Origin: Pomacea canaliculata
Lineage: Eukaryota > Mollusca > Gastropoda > Architaenioglossa > Ampullariidae
NCBI RefSeq assembly: GCF_003073045.1
Contig: NC_037601.1
Location: 6,417,872-6,481,871, forward strand
Direction: 5' to 3'
Length of the DNA stretch: 64,000 nt
Both the position numbers and the translations under genes were made by a program. The notes under the pieces are model-generated. The model had not been told where the DNA came from, searched no databases, and was given only the letters and a program-made list of their open reading frames with translations. Below, one piece after another: positions 3,001 through 43,700 of the stretch. Every line of letters begins with the position of its first letter. Position 1 is the first letter of the stretch.

Positions 3001-6000
3001 TTTTTTTCTTTTTAACTTGTTTTAGGACCAAGTCAACGATCCGAATTTTTTTTTAAAGATAGTAACCTACTTGGCACAGTCACATTCACAGTAACCACTT
3101 TTGATGCTCTGATTATCAAAAGCATCGTCTTCGGGGTTTAGTCGCCACAAAATATTGCTCGTAAGAGCGCGTTGGCTGACAGGATGCACATAAAGTTTCA
3201 CAAAAAATAAGTTAAATTGGCTTTTATTTGTTACACCCTAACAAGGACTGCCTGTTGGAGAAACAGGAGGCCGGAAGCACAAGCCACGTCGTTTGATCAC
3301 GTGATCTGGGACTTCCGGAACCTCAGCAGCTTCCACGACACAGAGAACGTTGTCAAAAGATGGCTGACCCGCGTGAATCCCATCGCCCAGCAACAAGCGG
3401 GAGGAGAGCGTTGAGGGTTTAAAGGACTAGCGGGTGCAATTTTTTTTTTCTAATTATACAAAATTTCTAAGTGCAAGATATTTTCCCCAAATCAAGGTGG
3501 GTACCACCCTCCCTCCTATCTTGCGATCAGCGTCTACAAAAATCATCATTCACAACGCCCCCTTTGTATGCAGATACGCTTGACATGCCCCAGCTCACCC
3601 ATTGGCTAAATGAAATGTGCACCCTACCGGTTTCAAGAGCCGTGTCATCATTTCTAACCTTGCAGCAAACGCAGCTCATGTTTCTCTTCGGTCGACATAC
3701 TGGACTGGCAGATTCTTATAGTTGATTGGCAGCCTTCCACAAGTGCATTTTTACAACTTGTGGAGCAAGTCCCGGGAGCAAGTACCAATAAAAGGTTAAA
3801 CGATTTATCATTTAAGCATTCATATTACGTACAAAAGAGAAATTTCATTTCTTTTCATAAGGTGTTCGTGTGCTTTTAAATCCTTTAATCGCAAATGGAT
3901 TTGACACATCATGTCTATCACAAAGACAATGAGTCCGCAACAAATATTTCCGTCATAAAGCTTGCATTAGAATACGCGCTTGTACGCGTACACGCACACA
4001 CACACAAACACGCACGCACAGACACGATATATGCATATACAAAAGGGTGCAAGATCACGCACGCACACACACTTGACCTATGTCTGTTGAATCACTGACG
4101 CACAAGGATTGCTGTAAAGTATCAGTAATAGCGAAAGACACGAAAAAAGCAGCTTTTTCAACAGAATTAGATTTCTGATCCCCCCTTGATCACCCTCTTT
4201 TTTTTTTCTTTTTTGAAGAATATTCCGTAATATTTATGAATCACTCACTGACAAACACTTTGGGTAAAAAAATGTACACAGTCCCTAGGTAGAGTACTCG
4301 TGTTGATATTTTCAGGCCCTTGAACTACAAATGTTTTCGATATACATAAAATAATATCTGTAGTATATTCGCCAAGATCGCGAAAATCAGAATCCAGCGC
4401 GAAACTAAACCTAAGTCATTTGAAAATAATGTTTAAACACTATATCCATAAACTATATCCTGATGCGTTTTTAAAAGATAATCATTCGTTTTAAGATGAC
4501 ATTTCTTGATAGCTTTCAAACTTCAGGTTACTCTTAATTCTTCCATTCCTTAAGTAAGAATCTATCACTGCCAAGAAATAAAAACCAAACGAGTAAAGCT
4601 TTCAGCAGCCACATTGTGCACTTGGGCTAGCGAGACACGATAGGGTAGGATAGAGCTGAGCTACGAAAAGCTTTTTTTCGCCATAGCTGGATCGGATTCC
4701 GATCGTGGTACAGTCTGCACGTAGGGCAGGTCGGAGCTACTGAAACAGAGAAGGAGGCAGCATTATCTGATATCAGGGAAGGTATGCATGACACCACCAT
4801 AATGATGGTGGTGATAGTGTAATCCCCTTTTCATGGCTGGTTAATGAGCCTTCGATGCGTTAATTTCACTATCTACGACTATAAAATATTTAGTACAATG
4901 GTAATTGAAAAGGTTAGGGTGCAACCCATACGCACACAACAAAGAGAGATATATACATAAACAGAGGAGGAAGGGAAAAAAGGATGAGGGGAAAGAAGAA
5001 ACAAAGAATAAAATTAAAAAACTCTAAAAACACAAAAAGAAAGTAAGAAACAACAAAAAATATAAACAAAGTAAAGAATACATGAACAAACGAAGAAAAG
5101 AAGGAAACGAAAAGAATTAAAAAAACAACAACAACAAAAAAAAACCCGAAAGAACATAGAAATTATCAAAAAGAAGGCAGTTTAGCTGCACTCAGAGTAC
5201 AATGCTTCGCCAAATCCGATATGGAATGTAGCCCAAAAGGTCTGCAGGCACCCACTGCACAAAACCTTCGTTGACCTGTCTTTGATCAGTATATTGCCCC
5301 ATTACCAGACCGTGAAGACCTCTCTGTCAGTATCTACCACGCGTGAAATATACACGTCTGCCACCCTCCTTCAATTCCCCTACCCCTAAACACTATTATC
5401 TGCATAAGAACTAGCACAGAAAGGACAATATTCAAGGTTATCCCTTGAAATGAAGTCGCTTAAAGAATGTTTGCAGTACATTTGCACTCACCTGCCACTT
5501 AAAGCCGGATATTTCGTTATGACCTACCCTTACCCCTCACAAACCATTCCATCACTCTAATGACTATGCTGCATTAAGTGTGTACCCCCACCCCACTTCC
5601 AATCCCTTGCATTTCAAACTGCTGCCACTGTCCTGCCGCTTAAATCAGTCTTGATGCCAACTATTTTGTCAGCGCCCCAAATTTTGACATTTGCCAACCG
5701 TTCAGATATTCATTTGCGCACTTGTCGTCTAGTCTGCCTTTTCACTGAGCGATGTAAGCCATCCAGAAACTCACTCGCTATCTCGCAGGTGTGGACCTGC
5801 GTCCAAGTTGTCGTGACTGGACGAGGTGGTCCGGTCAGTCTGTCGCCGACGACTGAGGGGGACTTGAGGTGGGGGCATCAACTCTTTGTCCTTAGCCTGT
5901 TGGAACAGACACAGCAATACATACTACTCGTCGAATGCTGACTCAGAAAATTAACAACAACAGGCTTTTTTTAGAAACCAGATCTCAGCACAGGGTACTT

Positions 6001-9166: not shown

Positions 9167-9366
9167 CGTTCCTCTCCTCCTCCTCATTGATGGCGAGGCC
9201 AACGACTGGGCACCGGGCTCCCTCTCCTCCACGACGACGTCCCAGTTGCCGCGCATGGAGGTGTGGCGCATGAGGGGTGACGTGGCCTGCAGCAGCGAGG
9301 AGATGCGGTTGCTCTTACGAGCGTTGGTCGAGCGCACGAACGAATCATCCACGGACCGCGCCGAGC
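9167..9366 (-). CDS. Lone GC-rich coding exon of an unidentified gene
   Basis: On the minus strand an acceptor (TTGATCACAG) is followed by a 200-nt open exon and then a donor (GTAAAT). The exon starts in phase 1 and ends in phase 0. It encodes about 67 residues rich in Ser and Arg, including SARSVDDSFVRSTNARKSNR, ATSPLMRHTSMRGNWDVVVE and SLASPSMRRRRGT. GC content and codon use are sharply unlike the surrounding AT-rich DNA, as expected of a real exon. The serine/arginine-rich residues suggest a regulated, phosphorylatable linker. I do not recognise the protein and found no partner exons in the window. They may lie across long introns or beyond the left edge. It is not part of the SOWAH gene, whose stop lies upstream of it at 17156. 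Confidence 0.55.
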
Positions 9367-10353: not shown

Positions 10354-10559
10354 AAGTGACAAAATGGCTGCCCAAAAGTTGCTGCGGGAGAACAGCCCAT
10401 TTCGGCCTGTTTCCGTGCAACTTGTTTCTGTTTGAAAACAATTGCTGCTTTCGCAGTTCTGCTGACCTAAGTCTGCTCCCAGCCTCCTCGACACCAGCAG
10501 TTCTGAAAACAAAAACAAACCCTGTAATAATGATTCTTCTCTTCAAAGGGTAAGAAACT

Positions 10560-17155: not shown

Positions 17156-17376
17156 TCACACTTGAGACGCAGAAGCTTGTGATTCTGTCATTGAAAGATG
17201 TATGATGCCACTGGTACGTGTCCTGGGCACAGAGGCAGCCTGTGTAGGAGTTATGATCAGGTCACCACTAGATCCACAAAAGGAAATGAACTTACGCTGA
17301 GCCTGAGAAGATGCAGAGTTTTTCAAGTACTGTTTAGGCTTTTTGCCGCTGTAGTCTCGGATGTTAACATCAGCTT
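17156..17376 (-). CDS. SOWAH exon 14 (last coding exon)
   Basis: 221 nt after a TTCCATAG acceptor, ending with the stop codon. It begins ADVNIRDYSGKKPKQYLK, the most diagnostic SOWAH segment, and continues with a Ser/Thr-rich tail ending SQASASQV. Confidence 0.85.
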
Positions 17377-20300
17377 CTATGGAACAGAAAGGAAAAAAAA
17401 AAATATTAAGAATGGGGAGGTTAAAAGATGACACTAGGTGTAAGGTGATGTGAAAGACTGCTTAGTGAATGGGGGCAAAATTTAAATTAAAATCAGGAAA
17501 AAACTAAAAAAACTCACTGTATGTATTAACTAGAAGGTCAATGACGTCTTCATGTCCATGAATGGCTGCCAGATGAAGAGGAGTATAACCCTGAAAAAGA
17601 AAGTTGGCAATGGGATTGTTTCAACTCCATTCAGGTACGGTCAAAGTGGTTAATACTTAATTTGCTCTTTACACAAGTGGTTTTTTAAGGCAAAGTATAT
17701 GTTGATGCTTCTTTGTGAAATGAGTGTATATTTCAGTCAGTAGTACTATTGTCCTTACAGCTTTAAGAAATAGTTTTTTTCAAGGTATCAGTTTATTTTC
17801 CAGACAAAAGGGACAACTTGTAACTGATAGCTCTATATCTGAACAAAATAAATGGTTGAATTCAATTTTAGCATGTCTCCTCTCATATAAAATTACTTTA
17901 CTGAAGAATAAATGAAAATGTATAAAGTATACAGAGAAGTATGCGCATGATATTAATATTTTTATTAAAGATAAGTAGCTTCATACACAAACCACTACTT
18001 TTTCCACCTATAATTTGGGCTGCTATTGACTCTTCATTAGTATGGAAGTGAAACACCATACTCTATGTAAATCCAAACTTACATGTACATGCTGGAAATG
18101 TCATAAATTTTTTAGTCATTTATAATAATTAGCCATTGCAATATTTTTTCTTAGCGACAAGAGGCAAAAATCACATCTCAAGCTAGTTAACTCATCACTA
18201 TGTAACAGTTGTTTACATTTACAAAGAAATGCATAAAACATTAAACCTACCCCCTGATGTCCATGATGGTAGATATAAGGTCAAGCAGGAGAGGAAAAAA
18301 AAACAAAACCCAGTTAATATATTTCATAATAATAATCTATAACATTTGTTGAAGAAATACTGATAGAAAATAAACAACATCTAATTAACTGCACAAAACA
18401 TGTAACAAACTTATTATAAAGTTACTCTAAATATCTCAAGCAATTTGAAGATAATCAGAATCTAAATCCCCTAAATCTCTGAGACTAGCAAAGTAAATAA
18501 TTACCATATTAACAAAAGAATCTGTAACCAAAATAATTATTAAAAATTATATTACACAAGAAAATTAATGGGTAATACAAGAATAAACACCAAATATAAA
18601 AATAATATATTGAGAAATACAAAACATAGAACAATGTTTCATCTATTATATAACACACGTATAATACAACAGTTTTAAATATGTCTAGTAATACTCACAT
18701 ACTATGAAGAAATGTGTCGGATACAGCATACACATGAAACAAAAGCAAAAATATGATGGTACTAGGGAGTTTTAACGAAGAAAGTAAAAATAAAAACATG
18801 CATAGTTCTTCAAGTATTCATCATTACAAATTTAGGGCAAGCAGGTACAGGAACAGATATACAGCTGCAATCAATAGTTTGCCTTGTGGCAAATTAATCA
18901 CTCACAGATCTCTGGTTGACATTGACACCAATCTTGTTGGCAAGAAGCTTGACAACATCTGAGTTGCCTGCTTTTGCAGCCCAGTGAAGAGCAGTCTGAA
19001 AAATCAAAATATACATCAACAAAGACTATGTGAATATGTTTATTGCCTATAATCAGTTTTATTTTCCGACCTCCAATTAAAAAATCTTAATGGTACTAAT
19101 AACCAATTAGTCATAAGATGAAAATACAAAAAGCAAATATTTACATATTTCAAAAATATTTCAGACTTTAAAAAATTTTTATCTTTAATTTTTGCTTTTT
19201 AATTATTTTAAACCATTATGATCATAGTTAATTTCACCAAGAGTGCAAATGTCGGTATGAAACTTCACCATAAAGAAACTTTAATTATGGCAGAAGAATG
19301 GTAGTTCCCCCTCACTCTTCCCAACCCACATCATACATTAACCTCCATAACACAGAAAGTGCAGTAAAAAAACAGTTACTTTCTCTCTCTTAAAAACATT
19401 TTAAAAACAACAACAAAAAAAAAAAAAAAAAAAACAACAACAAAAAACAAAAACCAAAGGCAATGATTAAGTCAGCTTTAGTAAGAAAAGTGTTATTCTT
19501 GCATAGGATACTTACATACTTCATTTTGGCATCATGGAGAGATGACAGATAGGTGAATCACAGAGTGTAAGCAAACAGAAAAAAAGGTCAGTTAGGAATT
19601 AAAACTTTTAAAGAAAATTTGAACCTGGTACTGAATTTGTAAAATTAACAACTCCTTATGACACAATTTCATAATTTTAAAAAAGTGAGAATAATTATCA
19701 CAATTTTGAATATAACTAGCTCTCTCTCACACACACACTGCCCTTCCTTATAAAAAGAAATAATGCACAATCACATAATAAATAAATTAAAAAATATTTA
19801 AAATACCAAATAATTCTATCTCTCTCTCACACACAAACTGTCCCATAGTATTTCAAAATTCAAAACATCAAATTTCCTCTTCCTAAGATGAAAAATATGC
19901 TACTTCTGTAACACTTATGTAACATTCACCTACATGGTAAATAAATTTGGTGTAAAATATACTTACCCCCTGAATAAAGAGTTGATCAGTATTGGGACAA
20001 ACAAAAAAGAAGACAAAGTGTCAACAAACGTCTCACTTTCTTAAAGATTTATACATTACAACAAAGAAATAGATTTAAAAAAATGATTTTGCATGTACAA
20101 TAAAAACATTCCATCTGTACCCCTTGCAAAGTAATTTTGATAAAAATCCTACTCTTGGACGAAAAAAAATAACTGATAAGAAATTCAAATTTAGGACCAA
20201 GAAGTACACAGTCTCCAACAGATAAAAAAATTCCCAATATATTACATATTTATTTCAGCAATGTGATCTACTGAACTTACTAAAATGCTTCATATTATTA

Positions 20301-23300
20301 CTTACTCTTTAACTTACGTTCCATTACAGTCATGATAACATCATGGCATCAATATGCAACCAACTGTTAAGTCAGACTTATCTATTAAAAAATTATGGTA
20401 TGTAAAAAAGGACTCAAAATATATATATATAACATGCTGAAAATAACTGACAGCTGAAAAAGGCATGTAAGGATCATAAGCCTATCTAAAAATATAAAAA
20501 ATATACTGAAAATATCAACTTATGCGATTTTGAAAAACTGTGAAATAAATAATTATTCTTGATAATTTTAACTGTTAAAAGGTAAAAGACATCTTTAAAG
20601 AAAGTAACAAAAAAACAAGTGAAGCATAAAATTTACAGAAGGTGAAGAGAATGTTGTTACCAGAAAAGATGCACTTACGTTTGAAAGGTTCTGAAACAGA
20701 AAATTGGTTTCGTTCTTCAAAACAGCCCCATAAATATCTACTTACTATGCCCTGCGCAGTACTTTAATACCAGATCTTATGTTGCAAAAGAAGACAAAAG
20801 AACTTAAGTTTGGACATCTTTGAGAATTGTGCTATTTGCATTTAAAAAAAAACTATTCAAGTCAAAAAGAACAAAGACTTTAAAGAATTCCACTATTTAA
20901 AAGCAAATTCTATAATAATAATAATAATAATAATTATTATTATTCAAAGAACTTTTCCTAATAAGGATGGCAATGGTATTTATAAAGGAAAAATACAAAC
21001 CCACAAAACTCTCTTTGTTTGACATATATATAGATTTTAGGAATACCAAAAGTTAAACAGCAACACTGAAACAAAAAATACACTCATCACACCCAATCAT
21101 CATTGCCTGCAGCCAACCTGCAGGTGATCCAAAACATAGCTCCCACACAGATAACTGACATAAAATATAAATAAAACAAAATAAAAAAGTGCAAAGTGAG
21201 GTATTATTAAGGAGAATACTGATTGTGTTGTGAGTGCTTGCCATGTTCTTATTTTTTGAGATACCTTCACTTTTGCCAAATTTGGCTTTCTTGACAGAAG
21301 TCTGTGCATATCAAGGTAGTTAGCGGTTGAGCACACAACCATCCATTCCTTCTCTTCTGCAGACAGCTGAAAACATACCAACATCACAACCATGTATGTG
21401 AAATCTACTCAGTATTTTCCTAAAATTTCAAATACTACTTCCTCTATTTTTGATTTCTGTTTTTTTTTGCCAGGTTTTAGATGTCTCAGTTAGTAATGTG
21501 ATCATTGTTTGAGCGAGACATTTTGAGTACGTGTTGAACTAATTCTTATTATTCTTCATATCTGGCTGACTACTCATTAGGAACAACAACAAAAAAAACT
21601 TCTATTAGTACAATATGTAGAATTATAAATGTAGAATTATAGAATTATAATGCATAATCCTTGGATGAGATGAGATTTTTATTTTACTTTAACATGCATT
21701 TTTTTTATGCAGAGAGTGCTGTAACATTCCTCTTTATAATTAAAAAAATTAGATAAGGCCTGCAAGAGTGATATAAAGTTGCCTTTGTTCAGAGTGAAAG
21801 AATGCGCTAATGTCAGGACAACTTAGTGAGGATCTGTGATATTCACCAGCATTTGAAGTGCATTGCAAAAATACTTTATATAAAAATCACAGATATCTAA
21901 TTACTATGATTTATTATTAAAAAAGTGAATATATTATATGCATCATTTTGCCACTTAGAGTTTTGCTTTCTGTTTTAATATATACCAGCAAAATTCAACA
22001 GAGAAAAGATCAAAAGATCTCTTTTAAGCTGTTCATATCATGATAAATAATTGTTTTAAGCAGCTTCGAACTAAAAGATTTTATAATATCTTAAATGTGC
22101 ATCTTCTGACAATTGTAAATGTATGGTTTTGTATGACTCCTAAAACTTCTATAATCATAACTGTAACAAAAGTTACAGAATTGCATCTCACCGTGACAAA
22201 TGAAGATCCACCAGATGTATGTGATTCCTCGTCATCATCTCTCTGTGCCACCTATAATTTGATTACTCTGAGTAAATTGAGCATGCAAGACTAATTCCAC
22301 AAATGAAACATGCTTAGAGAATATGGGTAGAAAGATAGGCAGATATGCACACATAGGCAATCCAATATTCTAAAAAACCACAATTACAACCATCACATTT
22401 TGTTTCTTTTCCATCCTCCCCATTCCAGATCAGATTGCATTGGAAGAAACTGTGATTTTTCCTTGTGGTAGAGTTTACAGTTATGATCAACAATTTATAT
22501 AAGATTATATATGGAAAATAATCATCAATAATAAAGCAATAACTTCTTAAATGTATCAAATTTCAAATTCTAGGTGTTTATATGACCAAATGCATGTACT
22601 AGGTAAGCACTTAAAAACAGTGTTTTCCACAGAGATGTAAACAAATTCTGCACTGTTAGCCTTATTTTCAAATCTCATGGTTCCAGTTCGGGAATCTGAA
22701 AGGACAAATAACTCAGTGAACCTTTTTCCTTTGGGGAGCACGAGACTGCTGAAGTTCTGCATCAGAGCTCATTTTGTTGAGGTGCAGAGCTCTTTCTTTT
22801 ACACTTTGTATGGAAACATTGGCCTCGTCCTCCCCTGAACCAGACACACTCTCTCCTACAGAAGCTGGCACTGATGAAGAAGAACCCTGAGAACCCTTAA
22901 GAAAAGATAAATAACGGAATATTATTTCTGGAATGAGCTGCCATAAAATATTTGAATAATATCAAAACCACAATGAAAGTAATGGTTCTTTAAAAATTCT
23001 GTGTTGTATAATGCATCAGCATAGCGAATCAGTGCAAGATGATTTTGTAAGGAACTTCATGAAAAAAACAAGAAACACGTACGGTTGAAGCTAGGGATGC
23101 TGAAGAAGCATTTGATCCTGATTTCAAACCAACATTCCTAGTGGTACTCTTCAGCTTTACTTCAAGACTATCATCGCTGTAAACCTTTGACATGTGACCT
23201 CCATCTGGCATGTCCTCTTTGGAAGGAATAGTGTCTCGAGGTTCCGACTGTGCTCTTGAGCTATCTCCAAGGACAACAGGTCTGTCTCTCTTTGGGGTTT

Positions 23301-24558
23301 CATCGTATTGTGCATGCAGCTCTTGAAGATTGCTGGTCTGAGACTGAAGCCCATCTCCAGATGCAAGTGATTCTGCTTTAGTAACAGAGGGTGTGCTGGA
23401 AGCTAGAGATAAAGATGTTGAAGACCCACTGTCTGCTCGATACTTCTTTTTCAGAACCAGTACCTTTTCACCCTGTGGTACAAATGGAAACATGTAATGG
23501 TGGATACTAGAAAGATTACAGTGCTATGACTGAGTATGCTTAAAGCATTATACTCACAGCATAAACCATCTATTAAACTCTGCTCTTGAAAAAGCTGTTT
23601 CACCCAACTGAACCCTACAGATAAGCAGTATTTGATGGCCTTAAAAGATAAATGCCCCTTTATCATGAAAAAGGAATGCTAAATACAATCATAAATGCAA
23701 TGAAATATTCTCTGCATAACCATTTATCTCTGTCATGGAAAGTAGCTTAAAAACAACAAATATTTGTAAATCTTCAATCTGCTTTGTAAGGGTTTCAAAA
23801 TTCTGTGACAGATACTTGTATATTTTTGATCTGCTTTGTATGGGTGGCAACAGATCAAAAGATTGGGCTAGGTCCCCTAGGTACTTGATTGGTACTCTCT
23901 TTGATTTCTTCTTATTCATGTCTTTATTAATTTTATCTAAACCAGATGACACGAAGGCCAAACTTACCTCTTCAACTTTTATTGTTGCAAGTTCATTGAC
24001 AAAGTCTTTAAATTTCTCCCTATTCACAACTGTAAAAAAATGACAATGGTTAAATGACATTTCTAAAAGACAAATGCTTAATGAAATAAAAAAATTGTAC
24101 TAAAATTGACCTGAACTGTAATTTTTTTTAAAAGTTTGTATTTATATTTTATGATACATTGTTCTCAGCACCACAACACTACTTAGTCCAATGATGATCG
24201 TTAATGTAAACCCACATTTTTGTTCGTTTTGGACTGATGAGATTAGAATAGCTACACACATGTAGGATCGCGCATAATAATTTGTCGAATAAGAAGGAGT
24301 GAGTAAGATTAATAAATACGTAGTTTGTTTCTTCAGAATGCGGAAGAGATTAAGAAAAATCGTCTGCAACAATAATATGCTTGTTTTAACAGACTAGAAC
24401 CTGTTGTAAAAATAAAAATCTAAAAATTTGTACAAACCTTTGTCCACAGGATCATTTAAAAAGCTTTTAAAGTGTGTAACTAGCTCGTGATTTCTAATTC
24501 TGCCTCCGTTTCGTAATATACAGTCTTTCACAGAACCAAGGCTAAAATTTATCGCCAT
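17156..24558 (-). CDS. Sosondowah-family (SOWAH) ankyrin-repeat protein, 14 coding exons
   Basis: Joining the minus-strand exons gives 438 aa in an unbroken frame. Residues 1-72 match the SOWAH N-terminal winged-helix domain (RNGGRIRNHELVTHFKSFL, then NREKFKDFVNELATIK and GEKVLVLKKKY). A Ser/Thr-rich disordered middle follows (about 73-269, including SVKERALHLNKM). Then come LSAEEKEWM and the ankyrin region with TALHWAAKAG and GYTPLHLAAIHGH, ending in the family signature ADVNIRDYSGKKPKQYL. Known vertebrate SOWAH proteins are roughly 315-790 aa, so the length is normal. The start at 24556-24558 begins the conserved domain directly. Family members are poorly characterised and are thought to be scaffolds; no enzymatic motif is present. 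The oddest feature is that two short gaps in the ankyrin region are filled exactly by one 12-nt and four 3-nt exons. A degenerate LINE in the same orientation lies just upstream. Confidence 0.85.
17518..17590 (-). CDS. SOWAH exon 13
   Basis: 73 nt, with acceptor CTTTTTCAG and donor GTGAGT. It encodes GYTPLHLAAIHGHEDVIDLL, then VNTY plus one base: the second ankyrin repeat, close to the family consensus. Confidence 0.85.
18251..18253 (-). CDS. SOWAH exon 12, candidate 3-nt microexon (Gly)
   Basis: ATGGACATCAG is followed by GGG and then GTAGGT. The codon supplies the first glycine of GGYTPLH. The donor is slightly off consensus. Confidence 0.55.
18699..18701 (-). CDS. SOWAH exon 11, candidate 3-nt microexon (Tyr)
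   Basis: TTTCTTCATAG is followed by TAT and then GTGAGT. The codon fills the x of the family's R(S/T)xGGYTxLHLAA. Without it and the next microexon the repeat would be two residues short. Confidence 0.55.
18906..18995 (-). CDS. SOWAH exon 10
   Basis: 90 nt in phase 0, with acceptor ATTTTTCAG and donor GTGAGT. It encodes TALHWAAKAGNSDVVKLLAN, then KIGVNVNQRS, the body of the first clear ankyrin repeat. Confidence 0.85.
19516..19518 (-). CDS. SOWAH exon 9, candidate 3-nt microexon (Tyr)
   Basis: AAATGAAG is followed by TAT and then GTAAGT. The codon supplies the aromatic residue before TALHWAAK. There is a pyrimidine-rich tract further upstream, but the bases next to the AG are A-rich, so this acceptor is the weakest of the series. 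Confidence 0.5.
19967..19969 (-). CDS. SOWAH exon 8, candidate 3-nt microexon (Gly)
   Basis: AACTCTTTATTCAG is followed by GGG and then GTAAGT. The single codon supplies the conserved glycine of DFxxG(F/Y)TxLHWAA. Phase 0 on both sides. Confidence 0.6.
20679..20690 (-). CDS. SOWAH exon 7, 12-nt microexon
   Basis: A strong acceptor (TTTTCTGTTTCAG) and a strong donor (GTAAGT) enclose only 12 bases, AACCTTTCAAAC, read as NLSN. This occupies the place of DFxx in the family's K-DFxxG(F/Y)-TxLHWAAK sequence, with conservative N for D and L for F. Confidence 0.7.
20913..20945. repeat. AAT/ATT microsatellite forming a palindrome
   Basis: A run of AAT units passes directly into ATT units within a SOWAH intron, giving a self-complementary simple repeat of about 32 bases. 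Confidence 0.8.
21265..21366 (-). CDS. SOWAH exon 6
   Basis: 102 nt in phase 0, with acceptor TGTTTTCAG and donor GTATCT. It encodes LSAEEKEWMVVCSTANYLD, then MHRLLSRKPNLAKVK, matching the family's LxPxExEWM...LLxxxPxLA start of the ankyrin region. Confidence 0.85.
22192..22251 (-). CDS. SOWAH exon 5
   Basis: 60 nt in phase 0, with acceptor AAATTATAG and donor GTGAGA. It encodes VAQRDDDEESHTSGGSSFVT, an acidic Ser/Thr linker immediately before the LSAEEKEWM block. Confidence 0.75.
22722..22895 (-). CDS. SOWAH exon 4
   Basis: 174 nt in phase 0 at both ends, with acceptor TTTTCTTAAG and a weak donor GTTCAC. It encodes a serine-rich acidic stretch, then SVKERALHLNKMSSDAELQQ, a segment typical of the family's linker. 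The weak donor is the least certain junction among the larger exons. Confidence 0.75.
23083..23472 (-). CDS. SOWAH exon 3
   Basis: 390 nt in phase 0 at both ends, with acceptor GTACCACAG and donor GTACGT. It begins GEKVLVLKKKYR, completing the conserved N-terminal domain. The rest is a low-complexity Ser/Thr/Asp-rich linker without recognisable domains. Confidence 0.85.
23968..24029 (-). CDS. SOWAH exon 2
   Basis: 62 nt after a TTTTTTTACAG acceptor, with a GTAAGT donor. With the leftover base of exon 1 it encodes VVNREKFKDFVNELATIKVEE, the second helix part of the N-terminal domain, and ends in phase 0. The frame stays open for about 90 codons past the donor (see findings). Confidence 0.85.
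24438..24558 (-). CDS. SOWAH exon 1 (start codon)
   Basis: 121 nt, encoding 40 residues plus one base: MAINFSLGSVKDCILRN and on to FLNDPVDK. The donor is GTTTGT. It holds the first half of the SOWAH winged-helix domain, so the ATG is well placed. Confidence 0.85.
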
Positions 24559-31884: not shown

Positions 31885-33021
31885 CCGAGAACTAAGATGG
31901 CCGCTCCTAGCTGTGCGACGTCTGCAGCTCTCACTTCGGATTCAAATTTATTTCAATTTTTCATCGCTTTCGTCTCACCCTGTGTAGGTTAGTTGTCAAG
32001 TTATAGACTTAGGGTGTTGCGTCTGTGTCTAGTGATGATGATTTTTACGTTCATTGTGTTAGGCATGCGTTTATCATTTTGGATGGCTGTGGCCGTTACC
32101 ACTAGCCGACATTATTAAGATGGCGGTCAGCTTATTTCATGCTGGTCCACGGCTTCTCTACTCCCGCGAGCTCTTGCTCCGTCTTCGTTCATCTCCCTCT
32201 GTTACCCGGAGTTTTCGGGCGCTGCAAGTCGACATCGCACGGCTCCCTCCACTTCGCAGATCAAGAAGGAGAGGACGCAGAGGCGGTGTGAAGCGGAGAC
32301 TCAAGCAGTTTCGTCTGGACGATCGACGCAGATCTCCACCTCTTCCTTCTATCCTGCTCTCCAATGTCCAGTCGATTCGTGGCAAGATTGATGAGCTTGA
32401 GGTGTGGATACACAACTTTTGATTGCACAGGGATACTTGTTTGTTGGCGTTTACAGAAACATGGCTACACGACGGTGACGCTGATCTAGACATCGCTGGC
32501 TTCTCTGGCCCGTTTAGATCTGATAGATCTGCTGCAGTTACTGGCAAGGCGCGTGGCGGCGGAGTGTGTTTCTATGTCAACAACAGGTACTGTAAAACGG
32601 TTATTCTTCGTGAAAAGATGTGTACTTGTGACCTTGAACTTCTCACAATTTCGCTTCGCCCATTTTACCTCCCGAGAGAATTCCCCCAGCTGTTTTTCAC
32701 GCTTGTGTATATTCATCCCAGGGCGAATGTTTCCAATGCGTTACAGTGCATTGCAGAGGTGACTCACGATCTCGACTCGCTTTGCCCTGATGCTCCAAAA
32801 TTTATTTTGGGAGATTTTAACCACTGTGATCTGACATCAGTTCTCCCTAACTACGACCAGTATGTGACATGTCATACTACACTGAGTCAGACAACACTCG
32901 ACCTTGTGTACGGATCTGTACCACATTTTATTTTTGCTGGGATCACCGCGCATTGAGCGCATCTTTGTGATGCGGATACTGGCGCGCTATAAAACTACAT
33001 CATCATCATCATCATCATCAT
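31885..33021 (+). mobile_element. LINE with 5' region, endonuclease and 3' tail but no reverse transcriptase
   Basis: After an apparent 5' UTR, 32120-32956 encodes a basic N-terminal part (RRSRRRGRRGGVKRRLKQF), then ILLSNVQSIRGKIDEL. After one in-frame stop near 32420 it continues with LLAFTETWLHDGDADLDIAG, GKARGGGVCFYVNNRYC, PFYLPREFPQ and FILGDFNHCDL. These are the LINE apurinic endonuclease motifs (catalytic E in TETW, D and N in GDFN) of the CR1/L2-like group. The endonuclease breaks off near 32935, before its final SDH motif, and joins directly to a GCGCATTGAGCGC...GCGCGCTATAAAACTA tail and an ATC microsatellite (about 32999-33021). The whole reverse transcriptase is missing. Confidence 0.75.
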
Positions 33022-40748: not shown

Positions 40749-43700
40749 GTATGTAAGACCTGTGCCAGTAAAGGCGCAATTCCTTTAATGCTAGATTAAA
40801 AGGTTACATTTTTCCAATAAATTCTCTGATTGTTTAGAGATATTTGCTAACGCCTAATGACTTGGTGTGCAGCACACCGATCTGGACTGATGAAAACACT
40901 TGCTAGGGCTAGCGGTCGACATGTGACCTTTGATGTCTTGTATTAAGCGGTAGAAATAAAAAAATAAATAATTAAAAAACCCTCTGGTTGCAAAGTGTGC
41001 ATGCTTTTGTGCAGGAGGTCGGATGTTTGCATTCTAAACCAAATGTGTTCAACTGGTCGAAGGATATGTTTCTGTCAAAGATACAATTTTAGTAATAGAG
41101 GTATTTAAATCCGAAGACTTCTTAATATTTTGATAGTGGTCAAATAGTTTTACTAAAAGTTAATCGAGTGTGCTTCGAAAATAATGATTCAAGACGGCTT
41201 GTAAGTAAAACTATTGAAGCTGAAGTCATCGATTTGTCTTTATTTCTTAACTGTATGATCCCTCTTTTACCAGGTGTCTTTTAATGTGACATGTGAACAA
41301 GGCGCCAACATCAGTCTTCCATGGCCGATGAAGGCACCCGGTCTGGTGGAGTTGAGGGTACGGGACTGCATACTGTTGGACCAATTCGCTGATTTCCAAA
41401 CGCCGGCAGAGAAACTGAGCGATTCTCTGCGCGTGCTGGACATGCAACATTGTACATGGCTGACTGATGTACAAACTTTCCTGATGTTTTACTCAAAAAT
41501 GGAGAACATGTCCGAGGAGTTTGACTGTGGCCAAGACAGTTCTCTGGTTGAATACATCATGAAAAACATCAGTAGACATTTGAGAGGTCTTTCTAAGTCA
41601 CTGTCAGGCCTAGGGCAGAACAGTGGTCCTTCAAAGGGTGCTGATACTGGTACGATCTTCAAGAAATTATTGGAGAAAACTGATAAGATCGACATAAGAT
41701 GCTATTTCAGTAAACTGCAAGTACTCGATGAAAGTAATACTGACAATTTCCCTAAACACCATTTTGAGATGATGGTGCCGAAGAATAAATATCCGAGTCT
41801 TCGCATCATGAACTATCGTAACATTGGGTTACTTAGTGTTCCTGAGCAACTCAAGCAGTGGACGAGGTTCTTTCCCAAGCTGGAAGTGATCGATCTGTCG
41901 TATAATCGAATCAAAGATCTCAACATGGAATACCCATTCCCTAGCAACGTGAGCATGACTCTAGTTCTGCATTACAACAACATTACTAAAATCTCTATGG
42001 ATATCCTCAAAAACTGGGCTCAAATCCCAGGCCTTTATGTCGATATTCGCCATAACCCCATCAACTGCACCTGCGAACTTGGCAATCTATTGGACCAGCT
42101 GAACAATACAACAGCATGGACCGGACTGGCCATGACCTATTATCGTTCCTATGTCCCTGACCTCACATGCTTCACACCAGAGGCGCTGAAGGGTCGAAGG
42201 CTTGGTTCTCTGTCTCTAGATGACCTCCCTTGTCATGTATTACCCTATGACCTTCGACCTGCTTTGGCTGCTCTCGCGGTGGTTGTCCTTGTGCTGTTGG
42301 TGTTCCTGCTGCTTGCTGTGCGCTACCGTCGCGAGGTTCGCATCCTCGTCTTCACGCGCGCCCACGTGTTGCTGCCGTGCGGCCTTCCACTGGCGAACGT
42401 GGACGTCGGTCTGGCAGGTAGGAAAACCTACGACGCCTTCGTGGCCTACGCACACGAGGACAGCGAGTGGGTGCTGAAGGAGCTGTGTCACAGGCTGGAA
42501 AACTCCTCCACGCCCTCCAGACCAGCGTGCAAACTGTGCATCCACCAGCGGGACTTCGTCGTGGGCAAAACCATCATCGACAACATCATCGACAGCATCG
42601 CCTCTAGCAGGCACACCATTGTTGTCGTGTCGCCCAGTTTCGTCAAGTAAGTTATGGACAACATTATTACGCCAACTTAAAAAAAAATTATGATGATTAC
42701 GATAACGGTGATGAAGCTGAAGGGATGCCGTTTGTTGTGATGCTCAGGATGACTTTCGTGACCATTGTCGAATGTGAAGCAAACTTTGGTCGATCCGGCA
42801 TGACATGTGTTACCTCTTGATTAGTCTTAAGGGTCTTAACGGGACACACACGGCCAAATATGGTCGTTATTAAATGTTAAGTATGCACCTGCCACAAAAA
42901 CTCCACGACCCTGTGGCAATGTGTCTTGTTATATATATAAGGTTCCCCTCAGACTTCACATACAAATTGAAAGTGTCACGTACAGTTACAAATAAATCAT
43001 TCATTCTCATGAAACGTTTATACCCTATACCGCATATGTTCCAGGCGTTCCTTTGTCATTTTTCATTATTCTCTGTTGCTTCAGCAGAGCTTATAACCTA
43101 TTTTTATTGCTGAAGTTCAAATATAAGCGCTCCTTTGAAGTATTTTTAATCATTCGTCTGTTGTTTTAGAAGTGCTTGGGCCATGGAAGAACTGCAGCAG
43201 GCCTTCCGTCAGAGTCTGGAGGAACGGAGGCGCCATCTGGTGATAGTGATGCTGAAAGATGTCCAGATGTCGAAAATGCCCCTCGTACTGAGAAGATGCT
43301 GCAAAACCTTTACTTATCTCGAAGCTAATGATTCACTCTTCTGGGACAGGTAGGTCAGAGGTCATCACGGAAACGTACCTTCAGTCCTATGATACATTTT
43401 TGTGTGTGTGTGTGTGCGCGCGCGCGGCATTTGCTTACATTTATTTGCAGATTATTTTGTCAAATTAACATAGTAAAAGTGATGACAAATATATCGATAT
43501 ATGTAAAGATCTGACGCACTAATGATAATGCTAATACTGGTAATGTTCGATTAGGGAGAGGTTGCTGTGTTCTGTTATTTCTCAGCCTTCATATTCGTAT
43601 TTGTACCCAAATAGGTCAAAGTTCATAAAATCACTTATTTCCACATGTTTTCTTTTTCTTAATTAACTTTGTATCTCAAGCACACTAAACCTTTTAGTTT

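Follow-up and report, generated by a model that had tools for sequence, protein, structure and literature searches.

The window analysed here is a stretch of 64 kb, with no N inside, from the genome of the snail Pomacea canaliculata (440 Mb in 24 contigs), and it carries a SOWAH-family ankyrin gene on the minus strand, spanning positions 24558 to 4661. Assignment to the family is supported by protein search, in which the SOWAHC-like protein P0002 of Babylonia shared 54% identity over 90% of the query and the unnamed Nucella protein P0001 55% over 90%. Pfam reported ankyrin repeats (PF00023) in the C-terminal part, at 3.1e-20 with and 2.7e-18 without the microexons described below. PF25877, the N-terminal winged helix of SOWAHA-C, is precomputed for all ten best-scoring relatives and was unreported by Pfam for the window protein. 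When the genome was searched with the ankyrin part, matches 1–3 and 7 were exons of the window gene and the remaining listed matches were ankyrin proteins of at most 50% identity (150 of 383 candidates scored); the window gene is the only SOWAH gene evident among these matches.

Five microexon sites in two introns

Splicing the larger exons directly to one another produces the junctions AKVK-TALHWAAK and NQRS-GYTPLH. Compared with related proteins, six residues are missing at the first junction (gap 1, in intron A of 2269 nucleotides (nt), with 18 nt to fill) and two at the second (gap 2, in intron B of 1315 nt, with 6 nt to fill). The sequence-only reading had filled both gaps with five microexons, four of them of 3 nt. 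All five AG-exon-GT sites are present at the positions it gave, on the minus strand (m1 to m5 in Table 1). The claim that they are in phase 0 and skippable without loss of frame also holds, the open frame being 438 amino acids long with all five and 430 with none. None is a zero-nucleotide recursive splice site, AG and GT being separated by 3 or 12 nt throughout. The five sites are very probably real exons, of 12+3+3 nt (NLSN-G-Y) and 3+3 nt (Y-G).

This layout was recovered by a search that did not presuppose it. AG-exon-GT candidates above low splice-score cut-offs were chained in any number and with any lengths totalling 18 or 6 nt, and chains were scored by splice signals, with generic weights, together with fit to homologues. 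The top chain was 12+3+3 (NLSNGY) in intron A and 3+3 (YG) in intron B. When every exon had to be 3 nt or longer, 0/320 genome segments and 0/400 shuffles came up to the observed score for intron A, and 0/520 segments and 0/1000 shuffles did so for intron B. When exons of 1–2 nt were permitted, the counts stayed at 0/320 and 0/400 for A and were 2/520 and 3/1000 for B. The control segments, which overlap, were cut from twenty 10-kb loci on both strands. The pattern AGNNNGTRRGT occurs 18 times on the two strands of the window, against a shuffle mean of 7.1, and 4 of the 18 are the 3-nt exons. The site that the sequence-only reading called weakest, m3 at 19516, is indeed so, with an acceptor score of -6.0 over the last 17 nt and a rival F scoring nearly as high; yet its AG-free zone, at 84 nt, is the longest of the five, and the NCBI model of the same species makes use of the m3 donor. 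Two candidate explanations were rejected: an assembly gap as the source of the missing codons, the window being free of N, and a single 6-nt GGNTAY exon in intron A, which is absent from the listed chains of the search.

The NCBI model, the predicted P. canaliculata protein P0234, is reproduced by spliced window DNA at every residue. Of 192 ways to combine the downstream exon ends, one gives this match, the part through e8 being fixed as ATGAAGTAT-e7-TATGGG-e8. P0234 starts MK-Y-TALHWAAK and later reads NQRS-YG-GYTPLH; its MKY is ATGAAGTAT at 19524-19516, followed by the donor GTAAGT, and ATGAAGTATGT occurs a single time in the gene region. The NCBI model uses the m3 donor, and Y and G are included between e7 and e8. 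A start at m3, in place of a continuation to G and NLSN, would be expected if the pieces further upstream could not be placed. P0234 omits e1 to e6; as annotated, the protein seems to be cut short at the run of microexons.

Table 1. Exons (e) and putative microexons (m) of the SOWAH gene, in transcript order
Element	Position	Strand	Features
e1	24438..24558	-	start codon, N-terminal SOWAH region (MAINFSLGSVKDC...); close relatives align over ~90% of the protein
e2	23968..24029	-	frame and GT-AG
e3	23083..23472	-	open frame
e4	22722..22895	-	weak donor GTTCAC, boundary less certain
e5	22192..22251	-	open frame
e6	21265..21366	-	ankyrin repeat 1, ends AKVK, weak donor GTATCT; jump at the same residue in models of 30 relatives
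m1	20679..20690	-	12 nt, AACCTTTCAAAC = NLSN; donor GTAAGT; AG-free zone 22 nt; 4-residue piece in relatives (Haliotis NFTN, Biomphalaria DFTN)
m2	19967..19969	-	3 nt, GGG = Gly; donor GTAAGT; AG-free zone 60 nt; residue in 30/30 aligned relatives
m3	19516..19518	-	3 nt, TAT = Tyr; donor GTAAGT, joined to e7 in P0234; AG-free zone 84 nt; CTAAC 74 nt upstream
e7	18906..18995	-	TALHWAAK...NQRS, ankyrin repeat 2
m4	18699..18701	-	3 nt, TAT = Tyr; donor GTGAGT; AG-free zone 58 nt; residue in P0234
m5	18251..18253	-	3 nt, GGG = Gly; donor GTAGGT; AG-free zone 81 nt; residue in P0234
e8	17518..17590	-	GYTPLHLAAIHGHEDV, ankyrin repeat 3
e9	17296..17376	-	ends SSQAQ, donor GTAAGT; alternative end by unspliced read-through to stop at 17156
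e10	10467..10502	-	P0234 exact match
e11	9167..9366	-	P0234 exact match
e12	5775..5896	-	P0234 exact match
e13	4661..4739	-	stop; P0234 exact match

Reading through the e9 donor (17296-17156, minus strand) gives a short alternative C-terminus, RKFISFC...SQV and stop. A similar ending is found in P0004 of Physella (AQRKRVIS), and other relatives have the long tail.

Gap residues in related proteins

The relatives comprise 254 proteins, drawn from the best 120 of 506, the best 120 of 3228 and 21 of 21 matches; some are other ankyrin proteins. In gap 1, all six residues are present in 112 of them and none in 30, while the first four alone are found in 13, four plus G in 12 (with S for G in one aphid), four plus aromatic in 19 and the aromatic alone in 3. 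The remainder are unclassified (34), lack the TALHW motif (28) or start inside the gap (3). The variants recur within groups: Haliotis has NFTN followed by TALH, Drosophila CPAT, CPATY and CPATGY, Apis DPTS and DPTSG, and fish DFTS, DFTSG, DFTSF or F alone. Counted by reading the list, both gap 2 residues are missing in 35/214 and only G in 5/214, the latter being models of carp-like fish that retain H or Q.

Where models run past a boundary, the added residues fit splice sites. Read-through after the fourth residue fits GT in Biomphalaria (DFTN-VS) and Orbicella (DFML-VS), and the Magallana model runs on after G (DFTSG-VS); read-through before Y or G fits AG in Drosophila virilis (SQ-Y-TALH) and Mercenaria (LQ-G-GYT). 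Because G and the aromatic are each lost alone, and because neither GGN nor TAY/TTY can come from a GT donor or AG acceptor shifted by one codon, which rejects such slippage, the two residues would lie on separate exons. Mollusc, insect and fish models thus appear to keep or lose pieces of 4, 1 and 1 residues independently (fish also 1 and 1), which would be the snail layout in protein form. Relatives bear out the sequence-only reading at the protein level, with the five carp-like fish splitting gap 2; its gene family, its counts of missing residues (six and two) and its exon identities and order stand as well, in agreement with the residues of P0234 and the relatives' pieces.

Inclusion was judged from 41 SOWAH-like proteins among the listed matches that lie on contigs shorter than 10 kb, a transcript-like set of which some members may come from intronless vertebrate genes. 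The gap 2 residues are present in 41/41 and all six gap 1 residues in 40/41; the remaining protein, P0237, has five (DMNGY), G and Y included, as though one residue had been lost from the four-residue exon, and in P0114 S replaces the aromatic. The m2 glycine is present in 30/30 aligned relatives, a count biased by the choice of complete rows, and aphid models have serine there. Models with missing gap 1 pieces number 77/254, and 0 of these fall in the transcript-like set; annotation failure is therefore the best reading of most omissions. We take the salmon protein P0164 (C0HBN1), which is without the G, to be derived from cDNA; if so, a G-less transcript exists in salmon. Inclusion of the five microexons looks constitutive, and the suggestion of the sequence-only reading that skipping tunes ankyrin geometry finds no support in these counts.

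AlphaFold2 models of two Mytilus proteins place gap 1 in a loop. In P0015, which has the residues, the loop lies between a helix ending at 253 and a helix starting at 263, and in P0013, which does not, the same loop is only two residues long. Residues with a predicted local distance difference test (pLDDT) score of at least 90 number 189 in P0015 and 172 in P0013, for which the fold is still predicted.

Among the Drosophila models P0044, P0046, P0055 and P0060, the four-residue piece is CPAT in some and DPAT in others, possibly two versions of the 12-nt exon, and D. busckii has GF in place of GY. Separately, the snail site AG-AAA-GTGAGA at 20039-20037 could be a decoy or an extra 3-nt Lys exon between NLSN and Gly; no such residue occurs among the gap 1 classes of the relatives.

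Proposed splicing and competing readings

In the mechanism that we propose, the loops opening ankyrin repeats 2 and 3 would be encoded by the phase-0 microexons (12+3+3 and 3+3 nt), all five would normally be spliced in, and the introns would be removed one at a time. Each 3-nt exon combines a consensus or near-consensus donor with a long upstream AG-free stretch, and would have a distant branch point and polypyrimidine tract. Such a branch point would leave U1 room at the donor, with U2AF/U2 sitting far from the AG, and the acceptor AG would be the first one downstream of it. It has been proposed that microexons are poorly spliced because their splice sites interfere sterically with each other (PMC8378409).

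The long AG-free stretches suggest distant branch points upstream of the 3-nt exons. The zones at these four acceptors (Table 1) compare with 12–55 nt at the gene's other 13, m1 included, a ranking with a chance of 1/2380, and AGs with a zone of at least 58 nt number 653/24508 in random loci and 14/177 in introns A and B, these four included. The branch-point motif CTAAC is found at m3 only, with weaker YTNAY matches at m2, m4 and m5. All five microexon donors are strong, and together with the weak donor of e6 they agree with the pattern of constitutive fly microexons, whose donors are stronger than those of their upstream neighbours (PMC8042270). We regard it as highly probable that the SOWAH gene has five normally included phase-0 microexons; the distant branch points, the splicing order and constitutive use, most of all that of NLSN and the first G, are proposals.

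Several points weigh against this reading. The test on AG-free zones was devised after the sites had been seen. The AAA decoy at 20039-20037 (minus strand) has an AG-free zone of 73 nt and the consensus-like donor GTGAGA, and the AG-free signature alone is therefore insufficient. A long zone is reported to be a near-exclusive mark of regulated eMIC exons rather than a general property of short ones (PMC8797185), and in human brain thymine lies further upstream of alternative micro-exons and close to constitutive ones (PMC4317164). NLSN departs from DFxx, with position scores of 0.3, 0.1, -1.7 and 2.7. The residues of m3, m4 and m5 are present in P0234, itself a prediction, whose start at ATGAAGTAT shows the m3 donor and not the m3 acceptor; NLSN and the first G are supported through sequence and homology. 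Outside Pomacea, the exon layout is seen through proteins only. Finally, without cut-offs the YG of intron B can be written in two GT-AG ways, as 3+3 or as a 6-nt TATGGT at 18060-18055, and P0234 cannot separate them, GGG and GGT giving the same last residue; Y after m2 can be written in one way.

It is unlikely, if worth keeping in mind, that the exons are real and at least some are regulated by an SRRM/eMIC neural programme, with skipping altering the ankyrin domain in some tissues. The acceptor of m3, weak close to the AG, together with its long AG-free zone, CTAAC at -74, TCTC and a TGC ending 10 nt before the exon, shows eMIC features, an architecture called largely unique to that regulation (PMC8797185). 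TGC also lies within 60 nt of m4 and m5, and single pieces are missing from some annotated isoforms. These isoforms may, however, be aligner artefacts, the last 60 nt before m2 are without TGC, and G is present in 41/41 transcript-like sequences. The strong donors behind a weak e6 donor are opposite to the fly eMIC pattern and resemble constitutive microexons (PMC8042270).

We give little credence to readings in which the residues come from other bases, whether F at 19837-19835, the 6-nt TATGGT, or a TAT at the end of an extended first exon, belonging to a short isoform transcribed from an internal promoter. The F chain (TTT) scores 22.8 against 23.5 for the Y chain, but its AG-free zone is 37 nt and P0234 has Y. 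TATGGT has an AG-free zone of 0 and the non-consensus donor GTTTCA, and a single exon of this kind fits poorly with the five carp-like fish models that lose G and keep H or Q. That P0234 starts MKY at 19524 is what an internal promoter would give; the same start before Y is seen in P0248 of D. virilis, for which a common annotation artefact is a better explanation than a common promoter. That introns A and B are removed whole, leaving a snail protein truly without the six and two residues and AG-N-GT sites that are decoys, is barely credible: the frame is open without the microexons and 30/254 listed models lack all six residues, the caenogastropod Nucella among them, but the NCBI Pomacea protein carries Y and YG, 0/41 transcript-like sequences lack gap 2 or the gap 1 G, and the glycine of all 30 aligned relatives and the segment and shuffle controls also stand against it.

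Age, known parallels and neighbouring features

Judging from protein models of corals and sea anemones, the microexon layout may descend from the cnidarian-bilaterian ancestor. In gap 1, the Actinia model is without the six residues and that of Exaiptasia has all six; the break follows the fourth residue in models of Orbicella, Porites and Pocillopora, precedes the four in those of Acropora and Oculina, and in that of Nematostella again follows the fourth, leading into sequence that does not fit GT. We propose tentatively, with doubt slightly outweighing belief, that the run of single-codon exons, including one for a near-invariant glycine, has been constitutively spliced since before cnidarians and bilaterians split, through a shared distant-branch-point architecture readable from sequence. 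With four one-codon exons in apparently constitutive use, the gene would offer a natural system for studying how the spliceosome copes when exons are too short for exon definition; since one of the four encodes a strongly conserved glycine, mis-splicing should carry a cost and its accuracy should be open to measurement. The gene also points to a systematic annotation fault, as the 77 incomplete models drop part or all of gap 1, often with the Gly codon, and gap 1 is also where models of several corals and of Littorina, Biomphalaria and Magallana break off. Annotation software able to handle 3-nt exons could correct the models of SOWAH and similar genes.

Single 3-nt exons are already known; the new part is four in one gene, apparently constitutive, with matching boundaries in fish and insects. 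The protein itself is not novel, as SOWAH (sosondowah) proteins share the sequence, the ankyrin repeats and the residues of both gaps; the novelty lies in the exon layout. In human RPS24, too, several microexons follow one another between a pair of constitutive exons, and one measures 3 nt, but their sizes are 3, 18 and 22 nt, they are tissue-alternative, there is one 3-nt exon against four, and the text seen describes no conserved fold residue (PMC11162997). Micro-exon 8 of Drosophila homothorax is an in-frame 3-bp exon long kept in evolution, as those of the snail would be; it differs in being single, lying between domains, ranging over 0–9 nt among insects and having an alternative 48-nt form in Schizophora (PMC7392893). 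The 3-nt micro-exon of TLN1 is conserved too, but is single, and its conservation is stated for mammals (PMC4317164).

For mechanism, the closest parallels concern branch points. The constitutive 4-nt microexon of human MPC1 requires 67 nt upstream, branch points at -68 and -64 and a 6-nt consensus donor, and its splicing still works at a length of 0 nt; unlike the snail exons it is single and not a multiple of 3, and its distant branch point was measured, whereas those of the snail are predicted (PMC9929638). Conserved plant microexons of 1–15 nt are mostly included and missed by annotations, with an adjacent 5+12 nt pair in rice, but they belong to plants, and the portion of the paper cited describes no run of single-codon exons (PMC8831610). 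The eMIC/SRRM neural microexons share long AG exclusion zones with the snail's 3-nt exons and have a strong upstream branch-point motif, represented in the snail by CTAAC at m3; they differ in their weak donors, strong upstream donors (in flies) and neural restriction, the snail having strong donors and a weak upstream one (PMC8797185). The snail's 3-nt exons have the long zone of that class (58–84 nt, with 22 nt at m1) and lack its fly donor pattern.

The literature search, made on titles and the starts of abstracts, with listings in supplementary tables outside its scope, returned none on microexons of a SOWAH gene. We take CG42672 to be the gene number of sowah. In the main texts, neither name was found in PMC8042270, and 'sowah' was not found in PMC8797185.

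The window holds other features. Upstream of the SOWAH gene, open frames at 32423-32956 (plus strand) and 25141-24896 (minus strand) resemble pieces of non-LTR (long terminal repeat) retroelements, and at about 28962-26921 inverted ends, tggaacctcggttaacga... and ...aaccgaggttccactgta, lie some 2 kb apart in what looks like a DNA transposon copy. At 41259-42650 (plus strand), a long open frame resembling a Toll-like receptor contains leucine-rich and TIR-like stretches (RKTYDAFVAYAHEDSEW).

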